Below, piece by piece: positions 24,878 to 49,060 of a DNA stretch of 64,000 nucleotides (position 1 is the stretch's first letter; every line of letters starts with the position of its first letter). A program made the translations under genes and the position numbers. The DNA lies in contig NC_053045.1 of NCBI RefSeq assembly GCF_003473485.1, positions 64,047,994-64,111,993 of the forward strand, written 5' to 3'. The notes below the pieces were generated by a model. That model was not told the origin of the DNA, searched no databases, and saw nothing but the letters and a program-made list of their open reading frames with translations. This stretch comes from Medicago truncatula. Its lineage: Eukaryota; Streptophyta; Magnoliopsida; Fabales; Fabaceae.

Positions 24878-27800
24878 AAGCGTAACAAGATTTCGACCCA
24901 GTATAAAAGAAATTTACTGGACTGATGCATAAGCCACAAACAAAGATAATATGATGTCATTGAGAAACCTTTTGATCCATTTTTACAATCATCATCTTTC
25001 CTATTGCTAACTCAACTTCATTGCTAGAATTATTGCATCAGGACAATGAGATTTAACTTTTAAGATTTTGGAATAGACTTAATATTATATAATCATTGAC
25101 GAAAGGCCTAAAACACTGCATCGTTGCATGTATATATGCAGCTTCATACTCGGATTGGATTGAATTAAGGATATTCATTCAGAATATGAATTAGATTGTC
25201 TTTCCAGCTTATGAAGAAAAATATCTCAAAATATATACTGCCACATGGTTGAATTGTTGGAATCAAAAGCCATAGAGTTGCAAGAAGCAGAAAAAATGAA
25301 ATTTCAAAGATAAATCCTCTTACTTCAATTTCTCCTTTTGTCATAACCTTAATATTTTTCATGACTTCTGACACTATTAGATATGTAATGGTTATCGTCT
25401 AATGCTCCACAGCTCCTGTCCTGCCAAGTAACATGTCTTGAAATTAGTCGTCATTTTTAATTTAGATAGAAGCGTTTGAAATGTCTTGGATATTGTACAC
25501 CAACAATGTTACGATGCACCCATTTTTGTGCTAATGTGAGAGGTATGAGATGATAAATAGACAACAGAGAGTAACAGAATAGTATGTGGGAAGGAGGCCT
25601 ATCAAGTACAATATAACATACTTTCAATTTGAGATCAAAAGACTTAGAATACATGCACACATTAGCACTTGTCTACAATCAATGTCTATTGTAGAGCTCT
25701 TTATCAGCATTTTTTTTTTTTAAAAATATTTTACAAAATAAATATATAACTATTGAAAATTAAATTTCATAGCAATTAAACACAATAACAACTAAACTTA
25801 AATTTCATAGCAATCAAACACAATAACAACTAAACGTCCACCTGAAATTGATCAAAAGCAACAAATACTTCCATTGACTATCATATGCCAAAACAAAACC
25901 AGAGAATCGGCGGACCAAATTTCTAGATTATAAAAAGAACAAAAATATATGCTACCAAAACAAATAGAAAGGAAGTTAATATAGACATGAACACAATGCA
26001 TCACTACAAGCATGGTGGAACTTGGATTGCAATGGATTCCTATCCTGCATTGCATCTCTTAGTGGGGTACAGATAGCATGATGCTCACCAAACTAATTCG
26101 TTAATTCTGCAAACAATAAACTACAACTTTGTAAAAAGATGCAGCAAAATAAACAGAATCTCAATAGCACCAATTACTGTAGAGAAACACAAACTGAGAC
26201 CAATACAAACTGGGGAAAAAACAAACCAACACAGAGATCCTTAATTTTTAGTTATGAAAAAACAAACCAACAAACATAGTAAGATCATCCGGCAGCCACA
26301 GCAAGGAATAAACAGCACCACATACAAATGGTAGAGTAACAACTAAATATATCAAACATTGGAACAATCGTGAAAATGGTCAAATTTGGATACAACATAA
26401 GAGTAGTCTCTACAAGGGGTCTCCAAAGGAAGTCTCGTCAACTTAATCATTATTTCCCAGGGAACATAACAAGGAATTGAGTTCAAAGGTAATCTCTACA
26501 AGAGACTGTCTTTGAAAGATTACAGATATGAACTTGTGGGTCACATGAATAACATATATGATATTAAAGATTAGTCTTTTCACCTATTATAAATACAGAA
26601 TGCTTAATTTTATTATAAAAGAACATAGGTTAAATATTGTTGCACATGACAGAGAACTTGAGTTAAATATGTTTTTTTTGCTTTTATATGGGGTAAATAT
26701 CTTGAGGGAATTTTTTTTCGCAGAACAGAATAAAAACATATTATAAACAAAACGCATAAGCCTCAGAATTGCAGAATATTATCCACAAGGCATAAAAGCC
26801 ATTCAGTCCCGAAAGATGGTAATTGGTGTATAATATATCATCATTGGCAATATCTATGTTCATAAGAAGACATTTAGATTAAAAAAAACATATGGGAAAA
26901 AATGTGTGTCTCATGGCCGTCCAAAGAAGTAAAGGCAGCAATGCAGCTCTACAAGGAGATGGAATATGAGACAAGCACCAACGGAGGAGAGAAGACCGTC
27001 AACGTCGATAAACATCAATATGCAACGTTTACTTGGAGTTATACAAACACTCAACTAGTTTGCCCCCTTTCAAGTTGGAGATTTGGATTAAAATCTCCCG
27101 TCACAAAATACACTAACTAAAACTTAACTTTCAACAATAAAGAATTGAAACGATCATAACAATACCGATAAAACCGAAACAATAGTAATTCAACAAAAAT
27201 CAATTAGAATGAAGTATCGGAGAGGTGAACACTGGCAGCAGTTTTATAGATACTTTGTGAACCTCTTGCTGCCGCCTCCAAAACAGAGACACTAACTCTG
27301 TCGGTTCCACACCCATGGGCTTTTGCTCCAACGACCCAGGCCCAATGCAAGGTCTCATGACACTTTTTGGCTTAACTTTTCCCACCCTATCATCTACTTG
27401 CGTGCCTTACTCTTTTTTTTCTTTCGAAAATACCCTATGTCCAGGGGTTTTAAAATCCGAAACATATTGTTAGGCATTTTTGGATTTTAGAATCCGAATT
27501 AAAATGAACTATTGTTTTTGTGTTGTATTTGATAGCAAATGTCTCTACTGTCCCCACATAAACTGCAAAGCAATTGTATGGATTGTATGAATGATCAATG
27601 AGGATGGTGATACGCTGCAAAGAAGCGGGATCTGTTTGGGTGTGAGGTTGGTTTGTCTTGGTGTAAGGTTGACCATCAAGGTCTCTTTCGCTCTAGAAAG
27701 GAAACAAACATTACTACGCCCCCCTCCTCCCACCATCCTTCTCTCCTTCCCCCTCCATCTTCTTGCACCGCATGCTTTGCTTTAGGTTTTTAATAGACTA

Positions 27801-36829: not shown

Positions 36830-39800
36830 TAACTTCACCTAAATCTCACCTAAGGACTATTATGATTTGGATTTGGATTAGAAATCACTTAAAGCATTTG
36901 ATTTAATATAAGGTGATATATATAACGTATAATAGGACAAAGATAAATGTTTATTTAATAATATTACACGTTTTTGAGTAGAAGATTCCACCTCACTCGG
37001 TTGAGTTGTTGTTGAATACTGTTTAGTTTTGGTGGGGTAGCCTTGAATTGAAATGAAACAAAGGAAGGAACTTGGAACTGACCTCAGCTTCAAAAACGAG
37101 TAGAGTAGTGTTAGTATTCATCACTTCTTTTAATACTTATAACTATTTTTGTTTTATAATAATATACTTACTTTTTATTACGAAATTAAAATACTTACAA
37201 ATCACATGGTTGGCACTGCATGATGACGGCAGTGTGTCGTATACTCATGACAACTGAACGCGTTTTCTCGCAAACGTAACCTTCTTTTGCATTACTTTTT
37301 TCTTACTTACATTTTACCACAATAATTATATGTGATTTAGAAATTAGAAAAAAACATAATTAGGCTCATCTTTTTCTCCTTTAGAAAAAAACTTGGTACC
37401 ACCTAAAATACAAAACTAGGAGAAGAAGAATTGAGGTTGCATATAGACTTAACAAATTAGGTTTCAATTTAGTTGAAAATGTGTCCATATTTAAAATCCG
37501 ACAATGTCTCAAGTAATATTACATACGATATGTATAATGTCCACATTCATTGGTTGATCTCACACCCCAATGTGATTTTATATAGATAAAATCTAGAATT
37601 TCATTGAAGAGTTTCTCGTGGCAACACATTGATACAGAATTATTTTAACCAATGGTTTAAATTTATACTTTATACAACTAAAATCTTTTAAGAGAAAAAA
37701 GTGGTTAAATACCGCGTTTCTTTAATGCTTAACCAGGAGACAAAAAAAATTGATCACAAATATGAGTCGGAATTTACTTCATTTAATAAAGAGAAAAAGG
37801 CAATGAAGATCTCCAATTGCTTTCTATACAATACATTTTTGTACAATAATAACCGTCAAAACAGACAACAGTGTGGAGCACTCAGCAACTCTTTTTCTTT
37901 TGAGACAAAAAGAAAAGGCAGAAGTTGTGTTTTTTTTTTTGGATGAGGATAAGTTAACGGCAGAGGAAGAAAGGACAATTTTATTAATTATTTTAACTTT
38001 ATCTTTTGAGTGTATGTAGAAATGTATACTTTTCTTTTTAGATTCATCTTTCCATCTCAAAAGACCATAATGACATAATTAAAGTTGCCAAAGATGATCA
38101 TGTTTGAGCTTTTTGACATGTTCCTTCACAATGCCTGATAATTTTGTAATTTTTTTAGTAAATCATGGGGCATGCATGGATTTGATCCCTACCATAAACC
38201 ATTGATCTCTTAAAAAATAATAAAATATATACCATCGGTTTGATGTACCATCCTACTACTAAGATGAGCAAAAGCACAACTGTACACATGGTCATTGGCA
38301 ATTAAGACATAACCATTCAACAAAACCAACAAAATTTGCTATAAATTAAACAAAAATAACAAGAGGAGTCTTGTAAAATAAAATGAAATGGTCTTTCAAA
38401 TCCAATTGAAAGATAAGTAATGGAAACTCATACATGAGAAAGCAAGTATGTGATTCATTCTCCCACAATGCCTTAACTCACAATTATTTTCCTCAGGGGC
38501 ATAAAACCATGACAAAAAACACTTTGTCCCTGGTGACTTCATTATCTAGACCAACAAATCTCATTGAGCCTCAAGAACAAGTGTGGATGCAGCCATTATT
38601 ATCTGTTGAGTCACTGCCTTGTCAAGTTTTTATTTTTCCTGCAAATCATCTCAATCATGTTTCAATGGTCATGTAGCCTCTAGAGAAGGTACATAAGATA
38701 CCTTCTTTAAGGTTCCTTTCTTCCAACCAGGATTTCTCTACCACCAACAAGTGGTATATAGCCCGGGTGATGGGATTTGATTCAGGTACACAGTTTTTGT
38801 ATCAAAGTTTTTCCTAGTTATGGATTTGGGGAATTCTATGGTGAAGTCATTAAATTGACTTTTTCAGAGAAGTTATCCTACATTCAATAATAATGCGCCA
38901 AATTGTTGAATGATGTCATGTGTGTTGACTGTTGTATGGTATATACCGTGTATCTGCTCAATATGCACCACCGTAGACTAGCTTTTTTGAACTATCAGAT
39001 TAAGCAATTCACTAGTGTTATTGTGTTCATAATTAATCTCCTTTTTGATTTTTTCTTCCTTCTATTTCAAAAAATATTTAAATAAACCTTTTTATAAAAA
39101 AATATTTCATTATTAAAAATAAATAAACCAAGGAAGATTATGAACATCATCACCATCTTCATACCTTCATCATCTTTTTTATTGAACAAAAAACAAAATA
39201 ACTACTCAAATACATCTCCAAATAACATGAATCTCAATATTTTCTTCATCTCCATTTTCTAATCAACACAAAAGTCAATTACCCTAATTTAAATCCAACT
39301 CTTGATGGACACAAGTAGAGTGTTAATTGCGGCTGCTATGCGACAATATATACTCTCAGTGGATTAGTTGCAGAATTATACAGATTGAATCAAGAGCAGC
39401 TATGCTTTTAGTTAATTTCCAGCAATTAAAAAGTAATTTTTTTATTAAATTGAGACGACAAATCTCTATGATAGATGCACAAAAGAAGTGATGTGGTCAG
39501 GCTGGAAATTAGTATGTCCATCATGTTATTGGTTCAGCGAGTACTCGTTTATGGGGCAACAATATTGGTTAAAGTATCAACGACGTGAATTGAGAGGAAA
39601 AATATAGTTATCGTAAACATGGTGACTTTAACCCAATCCATTTTTTCAATTTTAATTTAAAACAATTTATATAATCATCATTTTCGTCTTAATAGTTTTT
39701 AGGTACTCTAACTTATTTTTTTGGCTTAATAGGAAAATGTTAACATTAAAAACGTACTAATAAGTAATAATTACCATTAAAACGCCCCTAAAAAACTAGC

Positions 39801-41359
39801 ATTTCCGTTTCTTCTTAAAAAAAAGCATTAAAAACGTATTAAGTGTGATTCAATTTATACAGCTAGCATTAAATACGTATTAAGTGTGATTGCAGAATAA
39901 AAATTATTATATTTTTTTAAAGAAGAAATATTGACATCGAAAATTTATTTAAAACAGTATCGAAAATGACTAATTAGCTCAGAAATTTGCGTTAATAACG
40001 ATATCGAAAACATCTTACGTTTCAGAAAAAGAAAAAAAAAATATCAAAAACATCACACAGAAATTTACTTTAATGCATAAGTTTTTTTTATATATTATAC
40101 ACTTTTAAATTTTTAAAAGGAAGTCTTTTTCTTGAAAAAAAGGTTTTATATTAAATAATGACAAGTTAATTTGGAGAGTAAGAGATTGACATTTTTTTAG
40201 GCATTAATTGTATGTGGTTGAATCATGGAAAAAAAAGATAAATATTATTCATATCTTTAATATAAGATAATTATTATCATATGTTTTATTTAAATATAAT
40301 TTTTTAGACAATGATTAAATATATTTTCTTAATTATAAACATTTTTTAAAATTGTATACGATAAATAAGTTTCCATAATATTGTGTGTAACCTATAATAT
40401 TCTAAAAAAAACTTATGCAAAATTTAAAACAATTTAAGATATTGAGTATAAAGTATTTTATTTTTAATTTAATTCAAAAAGAAGTGTTGAATGGGAGGGA
40501 GGTCTGACCTTTGAGAGGGAAGTAGGTGTGCAAAATCAAAATTGTAACCACCATATCATCTATCTTTTAATGTCTAAAATCGAAATATATTATATATAAT
40601 ATATATAAGCATGTTATATCTACATTTTTTTTTTAATTATGTAATTTCATTTTTTTTTTTAATTTTTTGGATTTTTTTCTCTCTCATAAAGATGATGAAT
40701 AAGTTGATGAAGATATGATATGAAGAAGATGTTGATTTAATAAAAATCTGGAAGAGAGAGAATATAAATAAATAAAGAAAGAAAAATAAAGAGGAGAGAA
40801 AATTGGTACTAGAAGAAAAATCATGTGTAGATGGTGTACCACAATAACATAGAGATCAAGTAAATCTAACTATTAAAATCATGAAATAAAGTTTTCCTTC
40901 ACTTACGCTACCGTAGACCGCACTACACTGGAACATGATTAGGGTTTTTGATGTGTCATCATTTAAAATCTGATTGGCCCATTCAAACGACTTCACCGAA
41001 GAAGTCATTTTCCTGACTTCATCATAGAAGCTCCCTATGGATTTAGACTACGTGTTTTGTTAGTTGTTAATAGTTGTGTATGTAAAATTATATGAGAGTC
41101 TCATGCTTGACCAAAGATTGTTAGAATTCAAGTGTAAGTGATTAGCCACACATCGACAACAAATTAGAGATATATAAAAGAGGTAAATAAAACACTTAAT
41201 TTCATAAAATTTTAGTTAGAGATCTAGTGTCAATGTCTTTTGACGATCTTTACCATTCACTCTTTATTGGTATCAATGCTCCCAAGACTCTCTAACACAA
41301 ACACACAAGTAAGTAAAAGATATGTTATCAATGTTTATAAGAAATATTTAGTCTTGTAA
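36830..41359. other. Gene-free AT-rich stretch
   Basis: No gene was supported. Around 38745-38765 the sequence GTGGTATATAGCCCGGGT resembles a Copia primer-binding site (TGGTATCAGAGC plus CCGGGT), so 38450-38750 could be a decayed LTR; this is weak. The rest is AT-rich, low-complexity intergenic DNA. Confidence 0.4.
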
Positions 41360-41481
41360 TTAAGAGGGTGACACAAACCATGTATCATCCAACAAGTATA
41401 AAATGTTATTTTTAATTAGTATATAATGCAAATAATTTTTTAAAGAAATTATTGTTTAACCTTATATTTATATAGAATCCA

Positions 41482-41811
41482 ATGTTTAACACATCTTTTA
41501 TGGTTGACATAGCGATAATGTATGTCTCAGAGCATCAACCGTCACTTCCACTATTAAAAGTTTCAAACGACCAAATAAGTTGTAAGGATAATAGATCTGA
41601 TGAATGTCACAATAATGTTGTTGTCAATTTTGAAACTAAGAAAGCATCAATCATAAAAATTATTCCCGCAATAAAAGATATCAATACCAATAATGACATT
41701 GATCTGACCAACGACATTTTTATTGATCTGACCAATGACAATGTTATTGATCTGACCAGCGATGATGATTACATGCAAATCAATGATAATAATGATTTTG
41801 GAAGTTACTAG
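41482..41811 (+). CDS. Hypothetical acidic protein with tandem SUMO-interaction-like motifs
   Basis: The open frame in the left palindrome arm encodes up to 109 residues. The first visible residue is at an ATG in TCCAATG. The C-terminal third holds three tandem 8-residue units (DIDLTN, IFIDLTND, NVIDLTSDDD) encoded by a 24-base repeat at about 41695-41765. I/V-D-L-T followed by acidic residues is the form of a SUMO-interacting motif. The right arm encodes the homologous but degraded peptide (HNNIVVNSETRK, DIFIDLTSENVIDLIGNDD). The upstream half has no recognisable domain. Whether this is a gene, an exon of a larger gene or a relic is unknown. Function is inference from the motif only. Confidence 0.4.
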   Translation: MFNTSFMVDIAIMYVSEHQPSLPLLKVSNDQISCKDNRSDECHNNVVVNFETKKASIIKIIPAIKDINTNNDIDLTNDIFIDLTNDNVIDLTSDDDYMQINDNNDFGSY

Positions 41812-41829
41812 TTCTTTCAACTACTAAAA

Positions 41830-42110
41830 CAATATCTTCATTCTTATCATCGTGCATATAATCATCATTACCGATCAAATCAATAACATTTTCACTGGTT
41901 AAATCAATAAAAATGTCACTGATCGAATCAATGACATCTTTGATATTGATAACTCTTATTACGGAAAAAAATGTTTGCGACTGAAGCTTGCGAGTTTCAG
42001 AATTGACAACAATATTATTGTGATTGTTATCATATTTACTATCATTGCAATCTATTTCATTTGAAGCTTCAAATGGTTGAAGTGATGGTTGCTGATCTAA
42101 GACATTATCA
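41830..42110 (-). pseudogene. Diverged inverted copy of the IDLT-repeat sequence
   Basis: Read on the minus strand from about 42110 the segment encodes DQQPSLQPFEASNEIDCND, then HNNIVVNSETRK and DIFIDLTSENVIDLIGNDDYM. These align with the left-arm protein. The second and third IDLT units persist in part, while the first has become DVIDSI. There is no start codon in a good position. The promoter/leader-like repeat at 42265-42720 lies upstream on the same strand, so this arm may be the older, original exon. Confidence 0.5.
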
Positions 42111-42264
42111 CTGAATCAACGATAAAAGATGTTTAAGATGTTGAGTTCTATATAAATATAAATATAAATTAAACAGAAATAATTCTTTTAAAAATTATTT
42201 GCAATATATTGTTGGGTAACACTGATATGTGATTTGTGTTACCTTTAATTACTAGACTAGAAAC

Positions 42265-42720
42265 ATTGATGCAATTAACGTCAAAATATAGATCCCTAAA
42301 ATCAAAATTTGTTGCATAAAATCAAAGGGAAGAGAAAAAAAAAATGATACTTTAATGATTAATCCTTAAAGGTCAAAAGTTTAACCACGAGCAGAACTCT
42401 GCTGAAGAAACCAAGTTGCTTGGGCTCCAGTGGCAAGGAGCTCCTTCCAAGGACGCACCCGGGGAATACCGGGTTCGATTCCCAGGGGGAACAACACTTG
42501 GTCAGTGCGCATGCCTCTACGTATGAGCCGGATTAATCGCTCACCTTTGGTGGGTCGGAAACCGGTGCGAAAGCAAAAAAAAAAAAAAAAACTCTGCTGA
42601 AGAGGAAGCTTCCCTCAAATGAAGAAAGCCTGAAACCCTAATCTTTGAAAACCCTGTTATTTTACATTTGTCTCATGACTGTTGCGTTGTGTTTAGTATA
42701 TAATAAATAAATACTACGTG
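42265..42720 (-). repeat. Promoter/leader-like repeat, copy A (split by a SINE)
   Basis: On the minus strand this has a TATA-like TTATATACTAAACACAAC near 42690, a leader with TTAGGGTTTCAGG near 42640, and TTTTATGCAACAAATTTTG near 42310. The same elements in the same order occur at 47380-47550, and partly at 43080-43225. The SINE at 42409 interrupts this copy. Confidence 0.6.
42409..42589 (+). mobile_element. tRNA-derived SINE, ~181 bp, 14-bp TSD
   Basis: An internal Pol III promoter is visible: A-box-like GGCTCCAGTGGCAAGGAGC and B-box GGTTCGATTCC. The body ends in AAACCGGTGCGAAAGC followed by an 18-base A tail. The 14-base word AACTCTGCTGAAGA flanks it exactly at 42395-42408 and 42590-42603. 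The perfect duplication and intact A tail indicate a fairly recent insertion. It is not a functional tRNA. Confidence 0.9.
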
Positions 42721-43079
42721 TTCAGATTTGTTTTTTAACATATTTTTCTTTTTTAAGGATCCACTAAAAACATTACACATGAGAAGTTTCATATATATAT
42801 ATATATATATATACCTAACACTACTACCAGACCCATCACTAAAAACAGCTTCTCCAACTCGAAGACCAAAACATTCACGAGATCTGACGAGGATCCCTCA
42901 ACGAATCTGACAAAAATAAATAAATAAATAAATTGTCAAATAATAATCATAATAATAAATAAATAAATAATATAGGATTTGGATTACCTATCCTATCCAT
43001 GGTGGCTGGAGGAATCGAGCATGGAGGATAAGGTGAGATAGGTGGTTATGGTGGTGATGTGGTGTGAAAACTCAAAGCT
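42721..43079. other. Short gene-free stretch with (TA)n and AATA repeats
   Basis: It contains a (TA)n run near 42791-42812 and AAATAAATAAATA-type repeats near 42908-42970. Nothing coding was recognised. Confidence 0.4.
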
Positions 43080-43225
43080 TGGAACTAGGAAACACAATGT
43101 TGAATCAGTTTTGAACATGACTCTGCTAAAGAGAAAGCTTCTTAAAGTTAAGAGAGCTTGGAACCATAATTTTTGAAACCCTACTTTTTTGCAATGTCAG
43201 GACTGTGTTGTGTTGTGGTGTATTT
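43080..43225 (-). repeat. Promoter/leader-like repeat, copy B (partial)
   Basis: It shares with copy A (42590-42690) the words CTCTGCTAAAGAG, GAAAGCTTC, TTTTTGAAACCCTA and GTTGTGTTGTGGTGTA, in the same order and spacing, but is more diverged. Confidence 0.55.
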
Positions 43226-43273
43226 ATACTATGTGCTCGGTATTTTTTGGGTAAGAAAAAATATTTTTTATTT

Positions 43274-43347
43274 TTTTAATTGGAAAGAAATGGTAGTACT
43301 TATCCTAATTTTTAATTGGAAAGAAATGGTAGTACTTATCCTAATTT
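43274..43347. repeat. ~37-bp tandem duplication
   Basis: The unit TTTTTAATTGGAAAGAAATG, continuing to CTTATCCTAA, occurs twice side by side with no mismatch. Confidence 0.85.
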
Positions 43348-43924: not shown

Positions 43925-44739
43925 AATTTAAAATTAGAATTCAATTCAATCACTTAATTATAAAGAATGAGAAAAAAAACAAACAAAAAGTTTCAATAGA
44001 AAATATAAAGTTTTATGGTGTTGTTTGATTCATTAGTTGACCCCATCTAATAGAATAAAATTTGGTTGTTGTTGTATAAAATATTAAATTAAAAGAAAAG
44101 GAGAGGTCTACAAAAAAATATATTAATTAAAAGAAAAAGAGAGCTCTGTCAAAATATTTAGTCTTTTTTTTAAAGAGCACGTCATAATCAAGTGTTAATA
44201 CTCCTTGTCAATAAAAATGTACCACTACCAAATTGTTACCAAAAAAAATACTTTATAAAAATGATATATTAATTTTGGTATTTTGAAAAAACTCATGAGT
44301 TTTGAAAATTTTATCATATCGATTTTATATATCAATTACACATCGAGATGTACAAAAATTGTTTAACAGAGATTTTTACATTGAGACATAATTTTGGCTT
44401 CTTAAAAAAAATAAAGCACATAAAATCAAATGCAAATATTTTAATGGATTTTTACATATAAAAAATATAAAAAATGATATATTAATGTTGATATTTTTAA
44501 AAATAGTTTTCAAAATTTTATCATATCGACTTTATACATCAATTACACGTCGAGAGATAAAAAATTGTTTTTGCAGATATAAACAGATAAAATCCATAAT
44601 AGATGCAATGCAAATATTTAACGGATTTACGCATGTAAAACAAACAAATATTTTATAAAAATACTACATTATTGTTAATATTTTAAAAATTCTAATGATT
44701 TTTCTTCATTTAATACTATCTATCTTAGATACCAACTAC
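43925..44739. other. Gene-free AT-rich stretch
   Basis: Diverged internal repeats with TATCATATCGATTTTATA and CATCGAGATGTAC words occur near 44320 and 44525, suggesting a local duplication of about 200 bp. No gene was recognised. Confidence 0.4.
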
Positions 44740-45345
44740 AAATGAACCCGTGGAAATGCTCAGATCTTTTACTAGTAAAAAAGGCAACCCGATGCATTGA
44801 AAGCTCATGCATGCGGGATCTTTTACTAGTGAAAAATAGAAATTGAATTTGCTTAACCTCTTTTCAATTTGTAAAGAATTAAAAACTCTTTTGAAAAAAC
44901 TCATGTTCAAGCGATGATGTTCTGATTGTAGACTTTTTTTTATGTTAGGATCAATATAACCTTGGACCCATGACATGACTTGAGCATCTTTGACTACCCA
45001 TTTGACATGGGCAACATTATCCGTCTCTATCAAAAAATGGAGTGCTGCCATCGACACAACCCAGCCACAAATATTTTTATGTGACAAATATCTTGAAATG
45101 GAATGCCCTAACTGAGTAGATCATGTCATTAAGGCGAACCAACAAGACTTCATGTTTTTCTATAAACATAGAACTATGTAAATAAGAATTAAACAAGAAT
45201 GAGGGGTTAATTTGGATTGAGAAACAAATAATAGAGAAACAAAAGAGAAAAAACAAGAACATGAATAGAAGTGAAACAAGACCGCGAAAAAGAAAAAAAA
45301 ATATACTAGATTCTTGGACTGTAACTTAGGTTGATACCATGATAA
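44740..45345 (-). pseudogene. Ty1/Copia retrotransposon gag remnant
   Basis: On the minus strand from about 45165 the frame reads VRLNDMIYSVRAFHFKIFV, then after a frame change TDNVAHVKWVVKDAQVMSWV and GYIDPNIKKSLQS. This is the N-terminal gag region of plant Copia elements. Just upstream, at about 45335-45350, the minus strand has ATGGTATCAACC, like the usual primer-binding site word TGGTATCA. Frame changes and stops break the gag, and no protease, integrase or reverse transcriptase follows. Confidence 0.7.
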
Positions 45346-46299: not shown

Positions 46300-47092
46300 T
46301 GAAACGATGATAATCTTTTCACCGCTTAGGATGATAGAAAAATTAGAACCGATGCATGAAACTATGCGTGATACATTAAACATTTAAGACAACGTTCGAG
46401 TCATCTCCAATCACTGTAATTTATTCCCACCAATTAGTAATTTTACAAGTGAGACAACTAGTACAATGTTTCAATTTCCCAAAAACCAAACAACCAGTCC
46501 ACCAATGAATACCAAACCATCCTTCAAGGATACCGGTGAATTCCACTTGATGTTGTTAAGAAGTCACATCACCTATAATATAATATGAAGAAAGAAAGAA
46601 AAAAAACAAAATTTAACTATACAACCTTAAGTTCTCGTCAAAACAGACTTATTAGATAATCAACCAATGCATATTGATGGTGAGTTTAATGGAATCTGGT
46701 AAGCTCCTATAATTTTGGAAAAACTACATTTTGTAACTTTAACAAAATTGCAATGTTACCGCAATTTCACCAAAAATAACCATACAAACCTATGAAGCAC
46801 TAGCGCAAGTTCAAACACGACATTGAAATTACACGTCTACACAAGTAATAATTCTAATGCAATTACATATATCGGTGTCACGTGTCAAACACCAAACACG
46901 TTTTCAATGCATTTGTGTTACATAGATCTAAACATACACTAAAACCATATTGATGGTAAAAGTGAAAGTAAAATTTCAAGAACTAGAGTTAAGAACATGG
47001 TGTTCACCAATGATAATCGTTTAAACAATAAGAACATGACGTAAAATCAATCAAAGTAAGAATGTTAATCAATCATATTAACAACAAAACAA
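46300..47092. other. Gene-free stretch
   Basis: No gene or defined repeat was recognised. Confidence 0.4.
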
Positions 47093-47094
47093 TA

Positions 47095-47375
47095 CTCGCT
47101 CTGTCCCAAATTGTATGTCGCTTTGGAAAAAAAAATTGTCCCAAATTATATGTCGCTTTACAATACCAATGAAATATTAATGTTATTTTTCCTATTATAT
47201 CCTTAACTATTAATTACTCCTTATTCTTTCAATTATTTCATTTATCTTTTCCATACCATTTATTAAGGATAATTTTGTAAAACAACTCATAATTTCTCTT
47301 CCCCACACAATATTAATTACAATTCTTAATAAGTGTGAAATGACCAAAACGTCATACAATTTGGGACAGAGGGAG
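47095..47375. mobile_element. Stowaway-like MITE, 281 bp
   Basis: Inverted ends CTCGCTCTGTCCCAAATT and AATTTGGGACAGAGGGAG are flanked by TA dinucleotides (47093-47094 and 47376-47377). An internal duplication of CAAATTGTATGTCGCTTT lies near the left end. The ends and TA target fit Tc1/mariner-mobilised MITEs. It sits at the edge of promoter-like repeat copy C and truncates it. Confidence 0.8.
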
Positions 47376-47377
47376 TA

Positions 47378-47550
47378 TCTAATTAGTGAAGTTAAAATTT
47401 GTTGCATAAAAGTGAAGAGAAGAGGAAAAAAGGAAGTTATGTAATCCTTCACTTGAAAACGAAGCTTTGAGCTTGAAACCCTAATGCCTCTTCACTAATG
47501 CTACTACTGGAAGAATCCAAAATGTTGTTTAGTATATATATTTCAGTGTA
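47378..47550 (-). repeat. Promoter/leader-like repeat, copy C
   Basis: On the minus strand: TATATATACTAAACAAC, TTAGGGTTTCAAGC and TTTTATGCAACAAATTTTAA, in the order seen in copy A (42265-42720). Confidence 0.6.
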
Positions 47551-49060
47551 TGGAGTAACCCTAATTGCCGTGTGTGTGAAGTAACCCTAATGGTCAATTA
47601 GGAATGAGAGATATATTACGGTATTAGAGCGGTCACTCATTTTCCCTATGTTATGATGATTGTGTAGGTTAGTTAGTTTCATCAAATGGTTCATATAATT
47701 TCAATTAAATTAATAAATGTTTTTTTTGACAAGATTAAATTAATAAATGTTGTATATTAATTATTTCAAATAAAAATAAATATTCCACAAATCCTAACTC
47801 ATGACAAAAATATTGAAACTGTACCGGAGGCGGGGTTCGAACTTTGACTCACCCGCTTATGTTTGTGAAATTCAATGGTTATTTAATATCTATCTATTAT
47901 AAACAATAACAATACCGTAAAATTCTTGTAAAAAAAAAATACCATAAAAAAAAACAATAGCAATACTTGAATTATCAAATTTTATATTTCAAGTGATTAT
48001 TTTTATGACATTTCATTGATAAGACCTTAAAATATCATTAGTTTAATAGTTTAACCGTTTAATCTTTATTAATTTGTCTATATCTTCAAAATAAAGATTC
48101 AATAGTTAAATTTTTAAGTTGATAATATTTGAATATTTAGCATTGATAAGTCATCTAGAATTTGCAATGTACAAATTTTTTAAAGGAATCAAAGTTGTAA
48201 GGAATATTTTAGAGAGGCTAAAATTAAAAGTTGATAGATTTCTATAGAACTTAAACATATTTAACCCTTTATTTTATCATAGAGAAATATTTTTCGTAGA
48301 TAAATATATGCGCGAAATTCGTTCCCACAAATATAAACACATAGAATCTAGAATGAACACGGTGCAAACATTTTAACATACTTTGAATAAAAATTAAAGG
48401 GTTAATATATGTTTATGAGAAATATATTTGTAAGACCACTTTATGACAACTTTTTGACAACCTTCTCTCTCATACTCACATTATACTCTTATTCTCTCTC
48501 TTCTTTTTTCTCTCTTCATTGTTTTTGACCAATGAAAAGAGAGAGAAAAGAAATTGTCACAAAAATTGTCTCAAATGGATGTTCAAATATCACTACTCTT
48601 TGAAGATTCTTACTTTTGGATTTTCATTAATTTTGACTGTACAAAATCTATGATATAACAGGGGTAAACTGAAATTCGCTGAAATTACAAGGGACGAGAT
48701 ATACTTTAAATTTTGAAATTTGATGCCATGAAAATCTAAAACTAAAAAATTTTTAAATTACATAGTTGAAATCTAAACAATTTTATTTTTAGAGGTAAAC
48801 CATAAACACTAATATTACACTAGTCTTTTACACATTAAGAAATTGATAAATATTTAATTAATTATTATTATATTCTTTTTATTTATAGTCACTTTTAAAC
48901 ATTTTTTTTTTTTAGGGTGGGGGTGGGGTAAAAATAGGTAGTTCCTCTAAGAAAAAGAAGGTAGTTGGTAATATGGTTGGCGGGTGTGATGTGTGTGTGT
49001 ATATATTACACACAGATAGACAAAACGAAATTGCGGCACTAATTTTCTTCGGAATGCTAT
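47551..49060. other. Gene-free stretch with MITE-like pieces
   Basis: A B-box-like word near 47835-47850 could be a decayed SINE. About 48417-48600 resembles the possible MITE at 20836. About 48385-48400 and 48250-48265 have end words of Mutator-type MITEs. No gene was found. Confidence 0.35.

Follow-up and report, generated by a model that had tools for sequence, protein, structure and literature searches.

Inverted gene duplicates and pseudogene pairs, in which diverged gene-like copies face each other across a near-zero spacer and give a long imperfect RNA hairpin if transcribed, are a proposed source of proto-MIRNA loci in plants. A similar layout, i.e., an A+T-rich inverted repeat with little between its arms, is found in MITE and foldback elements. 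Among proteins, the plant SUMO-targeted ubiquitin ligases are an example of those carrying SUMO-interacting motifs (SIMs), which consist of a hydrophobic core and then acidic residues, several of them in tandem. According to PMC7767294, SIMs are hydrophobic and short, they bind to a SUMO groove that is ringed by basic residues, and STUbLs bind polySUMO via several SIMs. We describe here a locus of Medicago truncatula that resembles all of these systems and that lies in a window of 64,000 nucleotides (the whole stretch of DNA that was analysed). It differs from MITE and foldback elements by having no convincing target-site duplication, from the inverted duplicates proposed at the origin of proto-MIRNA loci by sharing their layout with no sign of selection on pairing, and from SIM proteins by a motif eroded in one copy and a SUMO binding that is putative here. 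The palindrome and the open frame shared by its arms are real. On balance, we consider it probable that they represent an old inverted duplication of the 3' end (intron and last exon) of a minus-strand plant nuclear gene, now decaying.

A sequence-only reading had proposed, at 41360-42250, two diverged copies face to face with almost no spacer. Both gapped local alignment and blastn bear out this layout, and the coordinates were about right. The elements of the palindrome are as follows:
41343..41813, plus strand: left palindrome arm, from gapped local alignment to the reverse-complemented right arm
41819..42267, minus strand: right palindrome arm, from the same gapped alignment and blastn
41476..41811, plus strand: left open frame, 111 codons stop to stop, from the frame listing and the arm alignment
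41780..42115, minus strand: right open frame, 111 codons stop to stop, from the frame listing
41698..41769, plus strand: three 24-base units, IDLTNDIF IDLTNDNV IDLTSDDD, from Tandem Repeats Finder and unit comparison
41861..41932, minus strand: three corresponding 24-base units, in the same register as those of the left arm, IDSISDIF IDLTSENV IDLIGNDD, from unit comparison

In the gapped local alignment, left arm and reverse-complemented right arm are identical at 348 of 436 aligned bases, gaps not counted, and differ by 57 transitions and 31 transversions; the spacer between them is about 5 bases. With the left arm as query against the right arm, blastn gives 75.7% over 383 columns (E 1e-70). 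The ungapped palindrome pieces in the repeat listing are I1, I2, I3, and I5; moreover, I1, I6, and I7 are palindrome pieces among the 10 inverted-repeat pairs listed for the window (pairs of at least 45 bases, at most 3 kb apart), and I1, with 146 bases, is the longest of the 10. A second, shorter palindrome is present at 48005-48154 (70% over 154 columns) and has a MITE-like look.

The Pfam matches of the window are in keeping with a plant nuclear genome. Indeed, of 10 long frames taken elsewhere in the window, 6 match a family above the cut-off (PPR, cytochrome b561, DUF568, GRAS, GMPPB_C, and zf-RVT), 1 below it, and 3 have no match. Two Rfam families reach threshold in the window, a tRNA and a snoRNA, both outside the palindrome; a SNORD96-family C/D snoRNA is located at 26758-26850 on the minus strand (RF00055, 59.3 bits for a gathering score of 43). 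Further along, a stretch of roughly 100 bases occurs as three diverged direct copies at 44242-44743, about 200 bases apart. A short element at 47092-47378, with 35-base inverted ends that are 91% alike, is presumably Stowaway-like, to judge by its look.

The two open frames are homologous and convergent, overlap by 32 bases, and align over 90 codon pairs with 47% identity over 91 columns; the end of the right frame lies inside the left arm. Frames of at least 111 codons appeared in 12 of 2000 resampled left arms and 8 of 2000 resampled right arms (the resampling, like the shuffles used below for the flank scores, was first-order Markov), and the whole window holds 22 frames of this size. Both peptides had been described as acidic, and this is confirmed by their D+E and K+R counts, i.e., 18 versus 7 in the 95 residues of the left peptide and 20 versus 7 in the 107 residues of the right one. 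Neither frame matches a Pfam family, which is a further difference from SIM proteins. The left frame was also compared with collections that do not consist of plant genes: it has no match in the PDB at E up to 10 and none among plasmids, and seven stretches of viral contigs fit a pattern, of which none is a relative, all three results having little bearing on the parent. When three frames each of 42200-43300 (minus strand), 40800-41811 (plus strand), and 46500-47600 (minus strand) were searched with Pfam, one match was returned, below the cut-off (Methylase_S, E 0.25). Just left of the palindrome, the minus strand holds a 63-codon open frame with no Pfam match (40856-41047). A part of this frame, 40990-41029, is similar to an inverted stretch at 38834-38873, with 82.5% identity over 40 bases.

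An intronless gene in both arms was rejected. According to the arm alignment, the first ATG of the left frame, at 41482, has no counterpart in the right arm; the right arm also lacks 4 bases at 41518, and the first in-frame ATG of its frame does not come before the last quarter. The sequence-only reading had spoken of gene-like copies, and this wording holds in a weak sense, by virtue of the homologous frames in both arms and of an in-frame splice model of the right arm that is presented below.

The peptide VIDLTSDDD has the general shape of a SIM. We confirmed the previously proposed 24-base tandem repeat with three units in the left arm, where Tandem Repeats Finder reports 2.7 copies at 41698-41762 with 87% matches. 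The claim that each copy repeats I/V-D-L-T is right for the left arm, with three exact [VI]DLT, and fails for the right one, which has a single exact motif despite three units in register. A six-frame count over the whole window finds 10 occurrences of [VI]DLT, 4 of them at the palindrome. The unit array is older than the duplication, because the best cross-arm match of each unit is its own counterpart (L1-R1 19/24, L2-R2 20/24, L3-R3 19/24). Homogenisation within an arm is also possible, because L1 and L2 (21/24) are more alike than L1 and R1. As for an interaction with SUMO, the units do show a hydrophobic core with acidic neighbours, and it is by this motif shape that the putative function is suggested. 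No mention of VIDLTSDDD, nor of other window or SIM-like peptide strings, was found in the literature, which carries little weight since peptide strings are rarely printed.

The divergence of the arms shows no sign of a general protein constraint. Indeed, dN and dS are nearly equal (NG86, 90 codons: 0.338 and 0.353), the differences are flat across codon positions 1, 2, and 3 (24, 27, and 23), and the bootstrap interval of omega spans 1 (0.47-2.05, 500 resamples). Other estimators place dN/dS on both sides of 1 (LWL85 0.30/0.20, YN00 0.35/0.42, ML 0.56/0.43), all these values coming from 90 codons of one sequence pair. The coding part is no better kept than the rest of the arm, because identity is 78.8% (223/283) in the open-frame part and 81.5% (123/151) ahead of position 41516. 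Along the frame, the 57 codons ahead of the units have a dN of 0.41 and a dS of 0.24, and the 33 codons from the first unit onward a dN of 0.23 and a dS of 0.67. For the 24 codons of the three units, dN is 0.16 and dS 0.55, i.e., an omega of 0.30, and 16 of 999 equally large random subsets of codons are at or below this value. In terms of amino acids, 8 of the 24 residues of the units are changed, from 14 base differences; the neutral simulation gives a mean of 9.1 changes, with 249 of 797 runs at or below 8.

The reading frame itself was examined in the same way. The 90 aligned codons of either frame contain no stop, a state reached in 3.9% of the runs of a neutral simulation (mean 3.05 stops) in which length changes are ignored and base frequencies and a transition bias are assumed. 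The stop-free state is thus somewhat unexpected under neutral decay. Between 41522 and 41800, the length changes are of 3, 3, and 3 bases, plus one compensating 1/1 pair; before 41516, none of the 10 is a multiple of three. Compared with the right arm, the left frame is also altered at both of its ends, by a change of 4 bases in length at 41518 and one of 2 bases at 41801. Since the frame and the motif region were picked after being seen, P values near 0.02-0.04 are not strong. The absent stops and the kept frame give a hint that coding may have persisted for some time after the duplication. We conclude that constraint, if any, would have been weak or would have ended some time after duplication.

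The structure of the putative gene was considered together with the flanks of the palindrome, where three more features are needed:
42097..42242, minus strand: possible A+T-rich intron of 146 bases, GT...AG, proposed from consensus and frame
42376..42756, minus strand: promoter-like or 5' region upstream of the right arm, with TATATA and AGGGTTT strings that suggest this function
42409..42589, plus strand: SINE-like insertion with a poly-A tail, between perfect 14-base direct repeats (42395-42408 and 42590-42603)

When 42242-42097 is removed from the right arm, the open stretch FRDLYFDVNCINVSSLVIK runs in frame into DQQPSL. With one donor and one acceptor tried per arm, the equivalent left-arm junction (41368/41531) does not preserve the reading frame. 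With the SINE-like insert omitted, the stretch 42756-42376 upstream of the right arm has a homologue on the same strand at 43279-43096 (Smith-Waterman score 114.5; shuffles 28.6, sd 4.0; none of 200 as good). A second homologous same-strand pair consists of 42370-42299 and 47457-47389 (62.5; shuffles 33.4, sd 4.5; none of 200 as good). Between the 43-kb and 47-kb stretches, no relation is detectable (37.5 versus 36.6; 80 of 200 shuffles as good). TATA-like and AGGGTTT strings occur in or beside both homologous flank pairs, and the stretches at 42, 43, and 47 kb look like repeated minus-strand promoters. A copy of the promoter-like region in the left flank was rejected, the best alignment being an A+T-rich run (48 versus 35.8, sd 5.1; 5 of 200 shuffles as good). 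The right flank is homologous to same-strand stretches and the left flank has no clear similarity to the right flank, which suggests a resident copy in the right arm and an inverted, truncated one in the left arm. The SINE-like insertion at 42409-42589 is of presumed tRNA origin, on account of its A- and B-box-like strings; ARAGORN makes no tRNA call on it. A bacterial promoter scan, which is inapplicable to plants, found 10 promoters where 13.0 were expected. At 42812-43000, on the minus strand, a possible two-exon reading starting with ATGGATAGGATAG was noticed by eye, with GT and AG suitably placed; it has no Pfam match.

With the observed duplication and open frames as a starting point, we infer how the gene was organised, in which direction it was copied, and that its function was lost; its status as a gene rests on the open frames. 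The 3' end of a gene, comprising part of an upstream exon, the A+T-rich intron, and the last exon, would have been copied tail to tail. The last exon would encode an acidic, Asn/Asp-rich, probably disordered tail with the three 8-residue SIM-like units. The right arm would keep the presumed context, i.e., the minus-strand promoter-like region, exon, intron, and last exon, with the SINE-like element placed in the presumed 5' part of its gene, and the left arm would be the truncated inverted copy. After the duplication, both copies would have drifted at about the same rate in their coding and non-coding parts, and it is because of this similar drift that they are most likely decaying gene pieces. 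The arms are indeed two inverted copies with homology along their length, as in an inverted gene duplication, and neither a start codon nor a splice junction is common to both, which argues for decay.

It could be proposed instead that one frame, or both, still encodes a small functional protein that binds SUMO through its tandem SIM-like units. The frames are open, in phase, and free of stops, and the low omega of the units, together with the excess of dS over dN from the first unit onward, goes in this direction. However, the amino acid changes of the units fit the neutral simulation, the exact motif is missing in two of the three right-arm units, the arms share neither start codon nor splice junction, and the overall omega is about 1, so that we regard a living SIM protein as improbable. 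In another proposal, transcription from either side would produce a long imperfect hairpin cut by Dicer-like enzymes, and the parent gene would be silenced by a hairpin RNA or young MIRNA-like locus. The fold is physically possible: the hairpin pairs 730 (plus strand) or 746 (minus strand) of 936 bases, its longest uninterrupted helices have 32 and 24 pairs, and good pairing is seen in 231 and 276 of the roughly 468 21-base windows that are possible. The folding energies are -349 and -374 kcal/mol, respectively (z -23 and -36, each against 20 shuffles). A foldback precursor as in plant MIRNA or hairpin RNA loci is thus available, and its strong folding energy and pairing are a direct result of the palindrome itself. 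Against this proposal, G-U-forming transitions, taken over the whole arm, show no enrichment on the plus (27) or the minus strand (30), a weak test on which strand-specific selection on hairpin pairing was rejected; plus and minus counts are 13 and 6 before 41516 and 14 and 24 after it, i.e., of opposite leanings. Furthermore, all Rfam matches within the locus stay below the gathering score of their family. A likeness to MIR161, the best of 16 sub-threshold matches there, was rejected (26.4 bits, E 0.0054, for a gathering score of 90). The small-RNA proposal of the sequence-only reading thus keeps its fold and gains neither pairing selection nor an RNA family, and we judge it quite improbable. 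Beyond shape, there is little positive evidence for a SUMO reader or a proto-MIRNA. Their combination, in which a lineage-specific tandem-SIM gene would have acquired a tail-to-tail copy of itself at its 3' end and read-through would give a self-silencing hairpin, i.e., a SUMO reader with a built-in RNA switch, appears highly improbable.

The palindrome could also be a foldback or MITE-like mobile element, or correspond to the long inverted termini of a Mutator-like element, the arms of which would carry an open frame by chance. The palindromic layout, a G+C of 0.27-0.28, and the mobile-looking neighbours, SINE-like at 42409-42589 and Stowaway-like at about 47092-47378, are compatible with this origin, as is a pair of 9-base flank sequences that differ at a single position, AGAAATATT (41340) and AGAAACATT (42259). 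However, these two stretches are located inside the aligned arms and not outside them, and 25 of 100 random pairs of places have an equally good repeat; as a target-site duplication marking transposon ends, the flank repeat was rejected as unconvincing. The divergence of about 20% would argue against recent mobility, and a blastn search of the 64-kb window with the left arm gives no further copy, the best other match (E 0.09) being within the arm itself. A mobile element is for these reasons rather unlikely.

The significance of the locus depends on which of these readings applies. If the frames are kept in relatives, a small tandem-SIM protein would be worth naming, and if small RNAs map to the locus, it would be a proto-MIRNA caught between duplication and specialisation. 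As a decaying duplicate, the reading that we favour, the locus would be of little import in itself and would provide one example of the type of inverted duplication that has been proposed to seed plant MIRNA genes.
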